From the NCBI RefSeq assembly GCF_022848905.1, contig NZ_JAFIRA010000003.1, positions 1-64,000 of the forward strand: a stretch of 64,000 nucleotides of DNA, read 5' to 3'. The notes under the pieces are model-generated. The model saw nothing but the letters and a program-made list of their open reading frames with translations, was not told where the DNA came from and searched no databases. The position numbers were made by a program, and so were the translations under genes. Source of the stretch: Thermostichus vulcanus str. 'Rupite' (GTDB lineage Bacteria > Cyanobacteriota > Cyanobacteriia > Thermostichales > Thermostichaceae). The number at the start of each line of letters is the position of its first letter. Positions within the stretch are counted from its first letter, which is position 1. Below are positions 3,799 to 9,927 of the stretch, piece by piece.

Positions 3799-5361
3799 TT
3801 ACAGGTTCGGGAAGTCGCCGAGCACCACCTGGGCGCAATTATGGCCAGGGATCCCGGTGACACCCCCGCCGGGATGGGCCCCGGAGCCACAGAGATATAA
3901 ACCGGCAATCGGGGAGCGGTAATCGGCAAAGCCGGAAATGGGCCGCAGGTTGTAGCTTTGATCCGGCGTGATTTCTCCGTGAAAAATGCTGCCCCCCATC
4001 AAGCCAAAGCGGGCTTCTAAATCCACGGGTGACAACATCTGCCGCGCAATGACGGCCTTTTTGATATTGGGGGCAAACTGGGCAATTTTATCGATCACCC
4101 GATCGGCAAATTCCTCCCGGAGGCCATCGTTCCAATCCCGCCCTTTCGGCTGGTAGGGCACAAACTGGCAAAAACAGGAGAGGATGTGCTTGCCCGGCGG
4201 AGCCATTGTTCGGTCGGTGGGGGACTGGCTGTAGATTTCAATAAAAGGATCCCGGGAAGGGATCCCGTACTTGTAGTCATCCCAGGCCCGCTCCAAATAA
4301 GCCACCGAAGGGGCAATATCCACCGTGGCCGAACTGACCACTTCCGGGGGGATCTCCGCCGGAGCTGCCGTGTAGCAGGGCAATTCCTCGAGGGCCAAGT
4401 TGAGCTTATAGACCGGCCCGCAGGTGCGGTAGTGCCGTTCTAGGTGAGTGCGAAACTCCGGCGGCAGGGATCCCGTGGGGCATAGTTTTAAGAACGTGAT
4501 CTGCGGATGGGCATTAGAGAGGATAGCCCGCGCCCGCAGGGTCTCCCCGGTTTCCAGAATGACACCTGTGGCTTGGCCATTTTCCACCCAGATCTCGGCT
4601 ACCGGAGCTGAGGTACGGATCTCCACCCCCAAATCGAGGGCGGCCTTGGCCATGGCCTGGGTGATCGCCCCCATTCCCCCACGTACATAGCCCCATACGC
4701 CACGGATCCCGATTGCCCGACCCACCGCATGAATCAGCCAGACATAAGGTGTACCCGGAGTCATCGGCCCGGCTGCCGTCCCGATCAGAGATTGGGGAGC
4801 CATCGCCGCCTTGACGTGCTCGGACTCAAAAAATTCATCCAGCAGATCGGTGGTGGAGAGGAGCATAATCCGCCGAAAATCATCTTCATATCCGGCTTGA
4901 GCAAAGCGATCCGCTAATTGCCCCAGCGATATCGGCGGCTGCATCAACGTGGGCTCAATCACCCCATTCACCCGATCCCAAAAATCCTCCCAGCGGTCGT
5001 AAGCCTCGGCATCCTTGGGAGAGAACTTAGCAATTTCCGCTTTGCTTTTGGCGCGGTTGTCGGCATAGAGGAAAAGGTGTTGCCCATCGGGGAAGGGCAT
5101 AAAGTAGGAGGGTTGCTTGGCATAGACCTCAAAGCCGTAATCCGGCAGACGCAGATCGCGGATGATCTCCGGGCGCAGCAAGCTACAGGAGTAGGAAGCC
5201 ACCGACACGCGAAACCCAGGGTGGATCTCTTCGGTGATGGCAGCACCGCCAACGGTGTGATAGCGCTCTAGCACCACGACTTTTTTCCCTGCTTTGGCCA
5301 GGTAGCAAGCACTCACCAACCCGTTGTGTCCACCCCCGATCACCACTGCGTCGTAGCTCAT
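3799..5361 (-). CDS. FAD-dependent oxidoreductase of the CrtO/PYROXD2 family
   Basis: 520 residues. The N-terminus carries a dinucleotide-binding Rossmann motif (VVIGGGHNGL, then VLERYHTVGGAA), and the C-terminus has the second FAD motif typical of phytoene-desaturase-like enzymes (LYLCGSGAHPGGGVTGIPGHN). The middle has the GYVRGGMGAI segment common to PYROXD2-like proteins and CrtO-type carotenoid ketolases. These enzymes act on hydrophobic substrates such as carotenoids, but no carotenoid gene is adjacent, so the substrate is open. The ATG at 5361 fits the family N-terminus; a GTG at 5397 would add 12 residues. It converges with the lipoprotein gene ending at 3725 and lies downstream of the linker gene on the same strand. 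Confidence 0.85.
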   Translation of the reverse strand: MSYDAVVIGGGHNGLVSACYLAKAGKKVVVLERYHTVGGAAITEEIHPGFRVSVASYSCSLLRPEIIRDLRLPDYGFEVYAKQPSYFMPFPDGQHLFLYADNRAKSKAEIAKFSPKDAEAYDRWEDFWDRVNGVIEPTLMQPPISLGQLADRFAQAGYEDDFRRIMLLSTTDLLDEFFESEHVKAAMAPQSLIGTAAGPMTPGTPYVWLIHAVGRAIGIRGVWGYVRGGMGAITQAMAKAALDLGVEIRTSAPVAEIWVENGQATGVILETGETLRARAILSNAHPQITFLKLCPTGSLPPEFRTHLERHYRTCGPVYKLNLALEELPCYTAAPAEIPPEVVSSATVDIAPSVAYLERAWDDYKYGIPSRDPFIEIYSQSPTDRTMAPPGKHILSCFCQFVPYQPKGRDWNDGLREEFADRVIDKIAQFAPNIKKAVIARQMLSPVDLEARFGLMGGSIFHGEITPDQSYNLRPISGFADYRSPIAGLYLCGSGAHPGGGVTGIPGHNCAQVVLGDFPNL

Positions 5362-5427
5362 CTGTTGCCCTTCGGCCTTTCCCTGTTGGATCTCCACCTA
5401 CGATACCGCTTTTCCCAGGGACATCTT

Positions 5428-5946
5428 CTACATCACCGCCAAACTTTGCAAAAGCGGCGATCCCTGCATCGCCAGTTGATGGCTGCGGTTCATGCGGTCT
5501 GTTAGTAGGTAAGCCACAGGAGGGTACCCCATGAGCCGTTGACGCGGGTGGGGCAGACGCTCATTGCCGAAATGGTGGTGATACTCCTCAGAATCCACAA
5601 AAGCATTAACCATCGCCTGGAAGCCCTGACGTACCAAAATGTCGTGGTAGGTGGCCACCTCAGCCTTATCTGCCGGCGCCCGCCCCAAAAAGTGCTTGAA
5701 CCCCTGCTCCACACAACGCGTGTTACAACCCGCATTAAAAAAGAGCTGCTGATAGAGATGGGATCCCCCTACTTGTCGAACCAGACGCTTAATACCCACC
5801 CGACCCCGGAGAAAATCCTGCTCAATTTTTTCTAGCTCACCTACTTTTTCGTGCTGGTAGGGCTGGCGTTCCAAAATCTGCTGATAGGCAGCGCGCAAAA
5901 GATTCTGTAAGGCTTGAGGATCCCGATTTCGCTGACGCGACTCCAT
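5428..5946 (-). CDS. Stand-alone phycobilisome linker-domain protein
   Basis: 172 residues dominated by a PBS linker domain (about residues 12-140). Recognisable signatures include LRAAYQQIL, a central FLRG..GIKRLVRQV, the FKHFLGRAP motif and a FVDSEEYHHHFG segment matching the D-S-x-E-Y end of the domain. The roughly 30-residue tail has no second domain, so it is shorter than rod linkers (CpcC) or rod-core linkers (CpcG). Such linkers bind the cavity of phycobiliprotein hexamers. An AAGGAG precedes the ATG by seven bases. It is transcribed divergently from the ferredoxin/V4R/phycobiliprotein-like cluster at 6384-9927, suggesting a shared role in pigment-protein assembly (inference). Confidence 0.85.
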   Translation of the reverse strand: MESRQRNRDPQALQNLLRAAYQQILERQPYQHEKVGELEKIEQDFLRGRVGIKRLVRQVGGSHLYQQLFFNAGCNTRCVEQGFKHFLGRAPADKAEVATYHDILVRQGFQAMVNAFVDSEEYHHHFGNERLPHPRQRLMGYPPVAYLLTDRMNRSHQLAMQGSPLLQSLAVM

Positions 5947-6383: not shown

Positions 6384-6869
6384 ATGGTTAAACAAATTCG
6401 ACTGGAGCCTCTGTCCCGTATCTCCGAGGTAGATACCTATAGCAACTTGCTATCAGCTATTCTTTCGGAGGATTTGCACGTTTCGCGAGAATGTAATGGT
6501 CGCGGCATTTGTGCCACCTGCCACATCTATGTCAAAGAGGGTCTAGACAGTTTGACGCCAATGACCCCGCGCGAGTCGAAAACACTTGAAGTGATCACCA
6601 GCGCCAAAACCAATTCGCGTCTTGCCTGTCAAGCCAGAGTGATTTCTGATGGCGTGGTGGTGGAACTGCCGCCAGGGATGTACGTAAACTCCCTACAAGA
6701 TGTGGAAGTTCTTATCGGCAGACGAGCAGAACAAGACTTGCTTCATCCCCGCACAGGGAAAGTTTTGGTCGAGCAAGGTAAAGTCATTACCCGTTCTACC
6801 GTAAAGCAACTGGAAAATGAAGATTTCCACCTAATTGGTAGCACCCTAGCACAAACTCGGGAAGTTTGA
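6384..6869 (+). CDS. [2Fe-2S] ferredoxin-like protein (Slr0148-like)
   Basis: 161 residues. The N-terminal half is a plant-type 2Fe-2S ferredoxin fold with ligands Cys37, Cys43 and Cys46 (C-x5-C-x2-C) and Cys82 (LACQA). The C-terminal 65 residues have no cysteine and are an extension beyond a normal ferredoxin of about 97 residues. It should transfer single electrons in the cytoplasm. It is first in a same-strand run of six genes with V4R and phycobiliprotein-like proteins. That combination matches what I recall of the PAP operon (slr0144-slr0152) tied to photosystem II assembly in Synechocystis, where slr0148 encodes such a ferredoxin-like protein. The assignment to that operon is by content, not alignment. 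Confidence 0.8.
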   Translation: MVKQIRLEPLSRISEVDTYSNLLSAILSEDLHVSRECNGRGICATCHIYVKEGLDSLTPMTPRESKTLEVITSAKTNSRLACQARVISDGVVVELPPGMYVNSLQDVEVLIGRRAEQDLLHPRTGKVLVEQGKVITRSTVKQLENEDFHLIGSTLAQTREV

Positions 6870-6985
6870 AGATAGACCTCTAGGAATCCCCAAAGCAAAC
6901 TCTACTTTTCTTCTCGCAACTTGAGCATTCAGCGGCTACAGCTCTTGCATTGAATTGCTTGAATCTATTCCATCAGGAGAGACCG

Positions 6986-7669
6986 ATGACCACCTCTACC
7001 TCTCGACCCGATCCCCGTCCCGCGGTCACAATGCCCACTGGTCGTGAAAAACATTCCCACTACAGTTACCGAGATTTCTTTCGATTTAATCGAGACCAAG
7101 GCACAATTATCGATTGGAATAACACTCAAAATCTCCTGCTTAGCGAAGACTTTATCGTTGGCCTGCAGACGGGCTTGGAACGGGAAGTGGGGGATGCCTC
7201 TGCCGCTGTTATGTACACCATTGGCATGGATTGGGGCACTCGGGATTCTGTGTATTTCTCCCAATGGTACGAACGGGAATATGGGATCGGGGTGAAGCAA
7301 TCTAACCTACTCTTTCTGCTGGAAACCTGGTGGTGGCCCTTTACCGCCCAAGGTTGGGGTAAGTGGGAAGTGGAAACAGAATCCAAGCAAAAGGGATTTT
7401 TGTTTATCAACCTATTCGACTCGATGGTGGCCCGCACGCTTGGGGATGTGGGCAAACCTGTCTGCCATCTCTATGCCGGTTTGTTTGCTGGGTTCTTCAC
7501 TGCCATGACCTCCAGAGAGCTAGGCTGCATCGAGATCCAGTGCTACGCCATGGGAGAAACCTACTGCAAATTCCTCCTGGGTGGGCAAGAGCGAATTGAT
7601 GCTGCCAATTTCTGGATTGCGGAAGGAGCAAGCGCACGCGAGATCGAACATCGTTTGCACCAATTGTGA
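6986..7669 (+). CDS. V4R-domain protein (Slr0144-like)
   Basis: 227 residues from the ATG at 6986, which follows AGGAGA by six bases; the frame is open to 6950, but that start has no ribosome site. The C-terminal part (about residues 100-200) is a V4R domain, the small-molecule-binding module of 4-vinyl-reductase-type proteins, with its typical end ELGCIEIQCYAMGETYC. Cysteines 160, 181, 186 and 194 cluster there and could bind metal or a tetrapyrrole. The N-terminal part (DFFRFNRDQGTIIDW) is an extra helical region. In Synechocystis the V4R proteins of the PAP operon are linked to photosystem II assembly and predicted to bind bilin or another tetrapyrrole. A paralogue is encoded at 9226. Confidence 0.82.
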   Translation: MTTSTSRPDPRPAVTMPTGREKHSHYSYRDFFRFNRDQGTIIDWNNTQNLLLSEDFIVGLQTGLEREVGDASAAVMYTIGMDWGTRDSVYFSQWYEREYGIGVKQSNLLFLLETWWWPFTAQGWGKWEVETESKQKGFLFINLFDSMVARTLGDVGKPVCHLYAGLFAGFFTAMTSRELGCIEIQCYAMGETYCKFLLGGQERIDAANFWIAEGASAREIEHRLHQL

Positions 7670-7715: not shown

Positions 7716-7997
7716 ATGCTCACCCTACATCCTGGTCGAGATTTAACTCAGCCGCTATCGGCTTTTTTACAGGGGTTGAACTGGGACAACCGCCCCCTCA
7801 CTCCTACCTTGCCCACAGAGGATCCCATCTCTGCCCCAGCTGGAATGCTGCCTCTCACCCAGTCAGTCGGACAATTTTTTGCTGCCTTTAACTGGTCAGG
7901 GATCCGACCGCGCCTACAGCCTGTGCCCGAATTGCCGGAGGAGGATCCCTTCACGCTTGATGATTTTGCGGCTTTGTTTGGTGGGGCTTTGCTCTAG
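7716..7997 (+). CDS. Small PAP-operon-like protein with duplicated F-x(4)-NW motif
   Basis: 93 residues from the ATG at 7716. The sequence repeats itself: LTQPLSAFLQGLNWDNRPL near residue 10 and LTQSVGQFFAAFNWSGIRP near residue 50, each followed by a Pro-rich stretch. The C-terminus (DPFTLDDFAALFG) is acidic and helical. There is no signal peptide or membrane segment. Its place between the V4R gene and the phycobiliprotein-like genes matches the small unknown genes of the PAP operon (slr0145/slr0149 type); that match is from memory. The repeat suggests two equivalent binding faces. An open frame to 7581 overlaps the V4R gene and is unlikely to be used. Confidence 0.65.
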   Translation: MLTLHPGRDLTQPLSAFLQGLNWDNRPLTPTLPTEDPISAPAGMLPLTQSVGQFFAAFNWSGIRPRLQPVPELPEEDPFTLDDFAALFGGALL

Positions 7998-8075: not shown

Positions 8076-8624
8076 ATGCATGACATCTACTCTTGGCCCG
8101 AGCGCATTGCCGATCGAGAAGGGGATTACCTCCCTCCTGATGATCTGCAAAGCCTGATTCGCTACTCTCTCTCCTTTCCAGAACGATTGGATCTGTACCA
8201 AGTGTTTCAACAACAAGAACTCACTTGGATCCAAGAAGTCTTAAACCAGCAGGGATCCGTAGACACTGCCAACTTGTCTCCTGCCCAATGCCTCCTAGCC
8301 CGTCAATTGGCCCTGTGTTTGCGCTCCGTCGGGTTAAGCCTGCTCATGGGGGATCCCTTGCCGCTGCAGCAATGGATCTGTGGAGCAATGGAATACTATC
8401 TGGGCTTACCAGAGGCCCTTGACCAGCTCTGGCAGACTCTTCAGGGATCGCTGCCAACGGAGCAGCAGGATTTGGTTGCCCCTTACTGGCAAATGTTGCG
8501 GGCTGCCTGTCCTAGCCCAGCTCCCGAGGCAGAACCCAGCCCTACCCCATCCGTTGTCGCTGAAGTGGAACCACCCCACGCTTCTCCAGAACCGGCCCTC
8601 ACTCTGATGGAAATGTTTGTCTAA
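8076..8624 (+). CDS. Phycobiliprotein-fold-like protein lacking the bilin cysteine
   Basis: 182 residues, mostly helical, with a Pro/Glu-rich tail from about residue 140. Its start (ADREGDYLPPDDLQSLIRY, then LYQVFQQQE) aligns with the next gene's product (NAEGRYLHPNELKSLHDYV, then IYQVLQSKE), so the two are paralogues. Both resemble the N-terminal helices of phycobiliproteins (A-D-A-E-G-R-Y-L type). At the position matching the chromophore cysteine (C-x-R-D) this protein reads L-A-R-Q (residues 74-77), so it should not attach bilin there. AAGGA lies just before the ATG. Proposed role: helper in assembly or turnover of photosynthetic complexes. Confidence 0.7.
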   Translation: MHDIYSWPERIADREGDYLPPDDLQSLIRYSLSFPERLDLYQVFQQQELTWIQEVLNQQGSVDTANLSPAQCLLARQLALCLRSVGLSLLMGDPLPLQQWICGAMEYYLGLPEALDQLWQTLQGSLPTEQQDLVAPYWQMLRAACPSPAPEAEPSPTPSVVAEVEPPHASPEPALTLMEMFV

Positions 8625-8670: not shown

Positions 8671-9141
8671 ATGAACTTGATGTTTGCGGATCTCCTTCAG
8701 AACGCGGAAGGCCGTTACCTGCACCCGAATGAACTCAAAAGTTTGCACGACTATGTGGAAGGGATCCCGAAACGAGTGCGCATCTACCAGGTCCTCCAGT
8801 CGAAAGAGAGTGAGCTGCTGGATCGGGTGATTGAGAAATTTCAGCCCATGCTACCCAACTTGACCCGTCGCCATGGGGTCTTGGCGTGGGAACGGTGTCG
8901 CCGCGATCTCAGTATGGTGTGGCGCTACTGCTGTATGGCCATGTTGCTCAACGACGAAGACTACCTGCGGGATAAGTTGCTCTACTGGCTAGAGACCATC
9001 CTCAAATCTTTCAAAATGCGCGACGAATGCAAACCGGCCTACAAACTGATGCTCGACTCCCTCCCCTATGTCTTCGGATCAGAAGAGAGCGAGATGATTC
9101 GCCCCTACCTGATTTTGGCCAAGACGATGCTGGTCAGTTAA
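8671..9141 (+). CDS. Phycobiliprotein-like protein retaining the bilin-site C-x-R-D motif
   Basis: 156 residues, close to the length of an allophycocyanin subunit. The N-terminal pattern NAEGRYLHPNELKSL matches the phycobiliprotein X/Y and A helices, and WERCRRDLSMVWRYCCMAML (from residue 73) matches the segment around the chromophore-binding cysteine (K-C-A-R-D-I-x-Y-Y-L-R in phycocyanin). Cys76, Arg78 and Asp79 therefore sit where the bilin-attachment Cys84 and its Arg/Asp partners lie. It has a strong AAGGAG site. Sequence outside this core diverges from true antenna subunits, so a specialised role beside V4R and ferredoxin proteins is more likely than light harvesting. Bilin binding is a prediction. 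Confidence 0.75.
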   Translation: MNLMFADLLQNAEGRYLHPNELKSLHDYVEGIPKRVRIYQVLQSKESELLDRVIEKFQPMLPNLTRRHGVLAWERCRRDLSMVWRYCCMAMLLNDEDYLRDKLLYWLETILKSFKMRDECKPAYKLMLDSLPYVFGSEESEMIRPYLILAKTMLVS

Positions 9142-9225: not shown

Positions 9226-9927
9226 ATGACCACCCTACAAGAGATTCTGCAGGAGCAAACCCTGCCTGGGCATTGCTTTAGCCCTGCTTACTACATTCGC
9301 CCCGATATTCATACCGGCATGTTGGAAAGCCGAGGTGGATACCGACTGGCCGCTTTCCCCATGCCCTTGCTAGAAGCTCTGTATTCGGGTTTGCGCTACG
9401 AAACCGGCCAAGCTGCCCGTGTCATCCTCTACAACTGCGGACGCGATTGGGGGGAAGAATTTTTTCGCCGCTTTGAAGATGAACTTTCCCGCTATCACAA
9501 CCAACCCCTGCGGGAGCTGCCGATGGGGATCCTCCTCGATGCTCTCAGCGATTTATGGGCTACCCACGGCTGGGGCAGACTGACCCTGGATTTTTCTGCC
9601 GGGGATCAGGGCGTGGTGCAGGCTAGCGTGTGCAACTCTGGGTTTGCGCTGGCGGCCCGCAACAGCTTTGGCCCAGAGGAAGCCGACAAACCCCGCGAGC
9701 CTAGCTGTTATTTGGAGGCAGGGGTTCTGGCCAGCCTCTTCTCGTTGCTCTCGGGCCGTGAGCTGGTCTGTGTCCAAACCACCTGTGAATCCCTGGGGGC
9801 CAACCAAAACCGTTTCTTAATTGGCACCGCCCAACGTCTGCACAACTGTGAAGAATGGGTACGCAAAGGGATGTCCCATGATGAGATCTTGGATCGGCTC
9901 ACCGCCACACCCGCGGGATCCCACTAA
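9226..9927 (+). CDS. V4R-domain protein (Slr0147-like)
   Basis: 233 residues with GAGGAGA before the ATG. The C-terminal half is a second V4R domain: LFSLLSGRELVCVQTTCESLG aligns with the same region of the 6986 product. Of the V4R cysteines, 161, 182 and 187 are present, but the third of the C-terminal trio (E-T-Y-C in the paralogue) is replaced by Asn, so ligand chemistry may differ between the two. Last gene of the six-gene cluster; its stop overlaps by four bases the stop of the convergent gene 9924-10661. Probably a cytoplasmic ligand-binding assembly factor, as for its paralogue. Confidence 0.8.
   Translation: MTTLQEILQEQTLPGHCFSPAYYIRPDIHTGMLESRGGYRLAAFPMPLLEALYSGLRYETGQAARVILYNCGRDWGEEFFRRFEDELSRYHNQPLRELPMGILLDALSDLWATHGWGRLTLDFSAGDQGVVQASVCNSGFALAARNSFGPEEADKPREPSCYLEAGVLASLFSLLSGRELVCVQTTCESLGANQNRFLIGTAQRLHNCEEWVRKGMSHDEILDRLTATPAGSH

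Follow-up and report, generated by a model that had tools for sequence, protein, structure and literature searches.

A bilin-motif globin of Thermostichus vulcanus and its co-occurrence with a separate branch of phycobilisome linkers

Results

We analysed a 64,000-nucleotide window from Thermostichus vulcanus str. 'Rupite' (contig NZ_JAFIRA010000003.1, positions 1 to 64,000) and focused on one open reading frame (ORF) within it, at positions 8671–9141. Its product is a relative of the phycobiliproteins that has an intact bilin-attachment motif and is not an antenna protein. It is a cyanobacterial member of the bilin biosynthesis-associated globins (BBAGs) and is encoded in a cluster of the slr0144–slr0149 type, also called Pap and associated with assembly of photosystem II (PSII). 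The globin class is already known: it was named in 2023 (Rockwell et al. 2023; PMC10151467), and that study noted a Cys-x-Arg-Asp (CxRD) motif in some cyanobacterial BBAGs. What appears to be new is the co-occurrence of a BBAG with its own, previously unrecognized branch of phycobilisome linkers, one member of which (hereafter LINK) is encoded divergently beside the cluster.

The ORF begins with ATG, is preceded by the sequence AAGGAG, and starts 46 nt after the end of the preceding ORF. Its product matches the Pfam family PF00502 (Phycobilisome) with an E-value of 1.7e-16 (61 bits against a cutoff of 22.2), and all listed phmmer matches in the PDB are phycobiliproteins, the best with an E-value of about 1e-6. 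An AlphaFold2 model built from 69 homologues (mean pLDDT 93, pTM 0.86) has the globin-like phycobiliprotein fold; the 50 Foldseek matches listed are all antenna phycobiliproteins (allophycocyanins or phycocyanins), with TM-scores of about 0.8 and E-values of about 1e-5. A preliminary description, made from the DNA sequence alone, had recognized a phycobiliprotein-like protein with Cys76-Arg-Arg78-Asp79 at the bilin site and had proposed a structural comparison with allophycocyanin, and both the motif and the fold are upheld. Cys76-Arg77-Arg78-Asp79 aligns with the CxRD motif of the antenna subunits from the same genome. The motif reads CRRD in 6 of 6 Thermostichus genomes (79–100% identity) and CHRD in the sister genus, where identity to the T. 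vulcanus globin is 53–56%, so it is not a chance match; Cys, Arg78 and Asp79 are all conserved among the orthologues; conservation of the Cys was what the preliminary description had required.

In trees rooted on the antenna subunits of the same genome, the globin falls outside the antenna phycobiliprotein clade (SH-aLRT support for the split, 95–99), and its best score on curated antenna-subunit models is 37.9 bits (apcB), against a cutoff of 228. On model scores, tree and genomic context together we reject identity as an antenna subunit, in line with the earlier proposal that the protein is not a light harvester.

LINK is a single-domain protein of the PF00427 family that scores only 62–82 bits on CpcG models, whose cutoffs are 420–440. 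Relatives of LINK lie directly downstream of stand-alone globins with a Cys-x-Tyr-Asp (CxYD) motif. Trees that also contained ApcE domains, rod linkers and 25 CpcG/CpcL-type sequences recover the LINK family as one separate clade (support 100/99) that does not group with CpcG; within it, the Thermostichus members and the CxYD-paired members form two branches, mirroring the split between the globins. The CpcG of the T. vulcanus genome is encoded on another contig (C4), and a survey of thermophile phycobilisomes tabulates Thermostichus with apcC, apcE, cpcC, cpcD and one cpcG (PMC10053587). Loci of the clade include, besides 5428–5946 on the minus strand, L027, L028, L032, L023, L024, L041, L054, L068, L072, L147, L159, L162 and L165.

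To survey the family we used a profile (A3) built from the linkers downstream of CxYD globins, with a threshold of E <= 1e-43; LINK family members score 173–371 bits with it, and no other linker scores above about 140. The family is present in exactly 16 of 292 cyanobacterial genomes, and this set is identical to that of the genomes with either an orthologue of the T. vulcanus globin (two genomes, G000 and G177) or a CxYD globin (14 genomes). Globin and linker are neighbours or share a locus in 15 of the 16, across 10 families; the exception is G060, whose linker was recovered though it lies outside profile A3 and whose globin and linker are on different contigs. Presence and absence also co-vary within families, with four genomes having both and four having neither in one (f11) and one of each in two others (f15 and f24). 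Beyond the 292-genome sample, three Thermostichaceae (G292, G294 and G296) carry both the orthologue and the linker and a fourth (G293) carries neither. At ten CxYD loci the globin–linker pair is the only widely shared content, and no further conserved genes are widely shared beside it. The nominal chance of this co-occurrence, about 1e-26, is far too strong a figure because related genomes are counted separately; the weight of the evidence lies in the 10 families, of which three show contrasts within them.

Apart from antenna subunits, the T. vulcanus genome encodes three full-length BBAG-type globins and a degenerate one. The bilin sites of the three read CRRD in the globin studied here, CQRH in a member on contig C7 and WKAD in a lone gene on C41. 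The CQRH globin belongs to a partial second cluster (G000:C7:44000-52500; L059) with V4R-A, NW protein, globin and V4R-B. Across cyanobacteria, the bilin-site residue of BBAGs is Cys, Trp, Ser, Ala, Gly, Val, Leu or Thr, and most BBAG-bearing genomes retain at least one Cys-x-x-Asp globin. Trp replaces the Cys in many Slr0149-type globins, and on several occasions the Cys seems to have been retained or gained anew. The CxYD globin is present in 13 of 18 genomes with a Trp-type Slr0149 and in 0 of 23 with a Cys type (Fisher p = 5e-7). A rule that one Cys-bearing BBAG is kept per genome was considered and dropped, as the pattern includes only three independent Cys/Trp changes and is inseparable from shared ancestry. 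Free trees place the Thermostichus globin clade next to a Slr0146-like clade (support 87–88), and the Slr0149-like member of the T. vulcanus genome is the Trp-bearing lone gene; these clade labels rest on gene order, the Synechocystis sequences not being in the alignment. Constraining the T. vulcanus and CxYD globins to one clade gives a likelihood slightly better than that of the free tree (p-AU 0.67). Slr0146, Slr0149 and the CxYD type were each considered as the exact orthologue, and none was singled out.

The surrounding genes are listed in Table 1. On the plus strand a 2Fe-2S protein, V4R-A, a small NW-repeat protein, a second globin, the studied globin and V4R-B follow one another. The preliminary description had placed the globin between V4R and ferredoxin genes and outside any antenna operon. 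The cluster is indeed not an antenna operon, but the immediate neighbours are the degenerate globin and a V4R gene, and the ferredoxin-like gene lies 1.8 kb upstream; nor is the context free of antenna-related genes, given the divergent linker. The preliminary description had overlooked three members of the locus: the linker partner, the degenerate globin and the small protein with NW repeats.

Table 1. Genes and features at the globin locus (window coordinates)
Feature	Position	Strand	Evidence
LINK, single-domain phycobilisome-linker-like protein, divergent from the cluster	5428–5946	−	PF00427, 124 bits
2Fe-2S ferredoxin-like protein (Slr0148-side)	6384–6869	+	PF00111, 30 bits; fdx_isc-like, 57 bits
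V4R protein A (Slr0144-side), probably starting at the ATG at 6986	6950–7669	+	PF02830, 69 bits
Small NW-repeat protein, slr0145 position	7716–7997	+	Similar ORF in the V4R-A/globin interval of most clusters examined
Second, degenerate globin	8076–8624	+	PF00502, 21.2 bits, below cutoff
Cyanobacterial BBAG (phycobiliprotein-fold globin), 156 aa	8671–9141	+	PF00502; AlphaFold2 model; PDB matches
CxRD bilin-attachment motif, codons of Cys76-Arg77-Arg78-Asp79	8896–8907	+	Alignment with own antenna subunits and orthologues
V4R protein B (Slr0147-side)	9226–9927	+	PF02830, 43.6 bits

V4R-A has weak similarity to BchJ. In the NW-repeat proteins of BBAG clusters the FFxxxNWxG repeat occurs two or three times, and the C-terminus is a short tail, acidic/hydrophobic and of the DLSDLF type; the one encoded here matched no Pfam family. 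The second globin has lost the bilin motif, which reads Leu-Ala-Arg-Gln (LARQ) in Thermostichus, and its model (pLDDT 76) matches allophycocyanin weakly, with a TM-score of about 0.6. Its added, disordered C-terminal tail ends in ALTLMEMFV and resembles that of the NW-repeat protein, as if the two shared a docking motif. The gene set recurs in many cyanobacteria in varying order; a frequent one is V4R-A, small protein, globin, V4R-B, Fe-S, globin, which we read as the order of slr0144–slr0149. With an Fe-S protein and two V4R proteins, the T. vulcanus cluster has the composition of a BBAG cluster, and with V4R, NW protein, globin, V4R and Fe-S genes it has that of the Pap type. No counterparts of slr0150–slr0152 were seen directly beside it, and promoter and terminator scans gave no more matches than shuffled sequence. 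A gene for an FAD-dependent oxidoreductase (amine-oxidase/phytoene-desaturase-like; 3799–5397, minus strand) adjoins the linker gene; none was detected next to the linker in those Thermostichus loci that we inspected.

Discussion

Our results favour a model, to which we give a probability of about 0.6, in which the globin is a BBAG carrying phycocyanobilin (PCB) on Cys76, held by the PF00427 linker and acting in photosystem assembly or repair or in tetrapyrrole handling. The globin would take up PCB unaided, without a dedicated lyase; LINK would mount it on the phycobilisome or on a photosystem-assembly complex; and it would act there together with the V4R, Fe-S and NW-repeat proteins that its cluster encodes, either in assembling or repairing photosystems or in handling their tetrapyrroles. 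The model joins what we observed directly (fold, motif, conservation, cluster type, separate linker clade and co-occurrence) with findings by others on relatives (lyase-independent bilin binding by BBAG-1 and BBAG-3, association of Slr0144–Slr0149 and the PSII phenotype of the operon). Bilin should be available, since the genome encodes PcyA and two CpeS-family lyases elsewhere. By homology, a bound bilin is plausible, because BBAG-1 and BBAG-3 relatives, which carry CxRD, bind bilins independently of lyases (PMC10151467). A link to photosystem assembly, already suggested in the preliminary description, fits the literature on homologous clusters: the Synechocystis operon products, named Pap, stabilise PSII intermediates (PMC4853703), an slr0144–slr0152-type operon of Synechocystis is linked to PSII assembly (PMC9145668), and physical interactions among Slr0144–Slr0149 have been validated by affinity purification–mass spectrometry with green fluorescent protein-tagged Slr0149 (PMC9880817). 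From the linker–globin co-occurrence we infer that the T. vulcanus globin works on a dedicated linker, to which it would bind physically. Under the model it would also take part in assembly in this organism.

Several points weigh against this model. The evidence for bilin binding comes from BBAG-1 and BBAG-3, which are relatives of this globin. Several BBAG paralogues lack the Cys, and a tree built without the motif columns requires at least nine changes between Cys and non-Cys states, so the fold can work without a thioether. Near the bilin site itself, positions 6–7 after the Cys are Met/Val, where several antenna subunits have aromatic residues, and the stretch preceding the Cys is at least four residues shorter in the alignment than in antenna subunits. 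On the side of the linker, the union of T. vulcanus-type and CxYD globins was formed only once the linker was known; taken by themselves, CxYD globins coincide with the linker in 14 of 14 genomes, and the remaining linker carriers are the two Thermostichus genomes. Grouping the two globins as one type is permitted by the tree, not proven, and is compatible with descent from one ancestral globin–linker pair. Finally, some studies assign the PSII function to slr0150–slr0152 (PMC10151467).

The paralogues bear on the view that the globin is a structural subunit without bilin, its fold serving as a scaffold for V4R and Fe-S proteins and its Cys a leftover or otherwise used. Clusters of this type also retain paralogues in which Trp, Ser, Ala or Leu occupies the site, and the second globin of this very operon lacks the motif. 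However, the orthologues retain Cys, Arg78 and Asp79, most BBAG genomes keep at least one Cys-x-x-Asp globin, and CxRD-bearing BBAG-1 and BBAG-3 do bind bilins (PMC10151467), and we consider a bilin-free scaffold rather unlikely. The ligand could instead be a non-PCB tetrapyrrole (biliverdin, heme or a chlorophyll precursor), with the globin as its carrier or as a tetrapyrrole-dependent assembly switch alongside the V4R and Fe-S proteins. The weak BchJ similarity of V4R-A points this way, as do related clusters outside cyanobacteria, which include a bilin reductase and usually heme oxygenase (PMC10151467), but CxRD is a bilin-attachment motif, and such a ligand seems improbable.

An ordinary antenna subunit, or an alternative allophycocyanin attached to phycobilisomes by the linker, would account for the phycobiliprotein fold, the nearby PF00427 gene and the faint resemblance to ApcB. 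It is very hard to reconcile with a strongly supported position outside the antenna clade, with scores far below the antenna-subunit cutoffs, with the lack of an alpha/beta partner pair and with the report that BBAGs are without the high fluorescence of phycobiliproteins (PMC10151467). A light sensor or photoswitch, the role raised in the preliminary description, has only the bilin site in its favour; the protein has no fused output domain and a BBAG-1 (POZ53552) is described as photoinactive (PMC10151467), which leaves us giving a sensor almost no credence.

More broadly, the Cys-bearing BBAG and the deep-branching PF00427 linker may constitute a two-protein module in cyanobacteria, the linker mounting the globin to form a bilin-carrying, non-antenna complex; we regard this generalization as an even bet. 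The globin could be mounted on the phycobilisome, on an intermediate in photosystem assembly or on its own ring, and the module would exist in two forms, that of the Thermostichus globin and that of the stand-alone CxYD globin–linker gene pair. Rockwell et al. stated that the function of cyanobacterial BBAGs is not known and that adjacent genes gave no evidence of conserved partners (PMC10151467). A lineage of linkers found together with one type of BBAG is a concrete partner candidate, and it suggests that PF00427 domains may also serve relatives of the phycobiliproteins that are not part of the antenna. Should the pair prove genuine, it would have implications for the origin of phycobilisomes from bilin-binding globins and for whether bilins participate in photosystem assembly. 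We found no earlier report of this pairing in the searchable literature; supplements and subscription journals lay outside that scope, and an earlier mention is possible. An earlier study of Acaryochloris concluded that 'apcA' copies are slr0149 homologues and reported several genes resembling CpcG (PMC6002478).

Among known systems, allophycocyanin (ApcA/ApcB) shares the fold and the Cys-x-Arg-Asp motif with the T. vulcanus globin, which differs in being only 16–23% identical to its structural neighbours, in its shorter pre-Cys stretch and in lying outside the antenna clade and any antenna operon. LINK shares its PF00427 domain with CpcG/CpcL, rod linkers and the ApcE REP domains; unlike these, the CxYD-paired members of its family carry a conserved C-terminal stretch with a Cys pair, of the type RGWxxPTxYWHELGLDCxxGxC. 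Cyanobacterial BBAGs of the Slr0149 type match the globin in fold and size, in the CxRD motif and in their cluster (Fe-S, two V4R, globin). The T. vulcanus protein is probably not a one-to-one orthologue of Slr0149, that place in its genome probably being taken by the lone C41 gene with Trp at the Cys site. Thermostichales clusters are included in the tree of Rockwell et al. and are basal among the cyanobacterial BBAG clusters there; the main text of their study makes no mention of the flanking linker gene and uses 'linker' only for phycobilisomes and a cloning step (PMC10151467). The slr0144–slr0152 (pap) operon of Synechocystis sp. PCC 6803 contains the same set of genes for V4R, small protein, globin, V4R, Fe-S and globin. 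In T. vulcanus the order is instead Fe-S, V4R-A, NW, second globin, the studied globin and V4R-B, with the divergent linker gene added.
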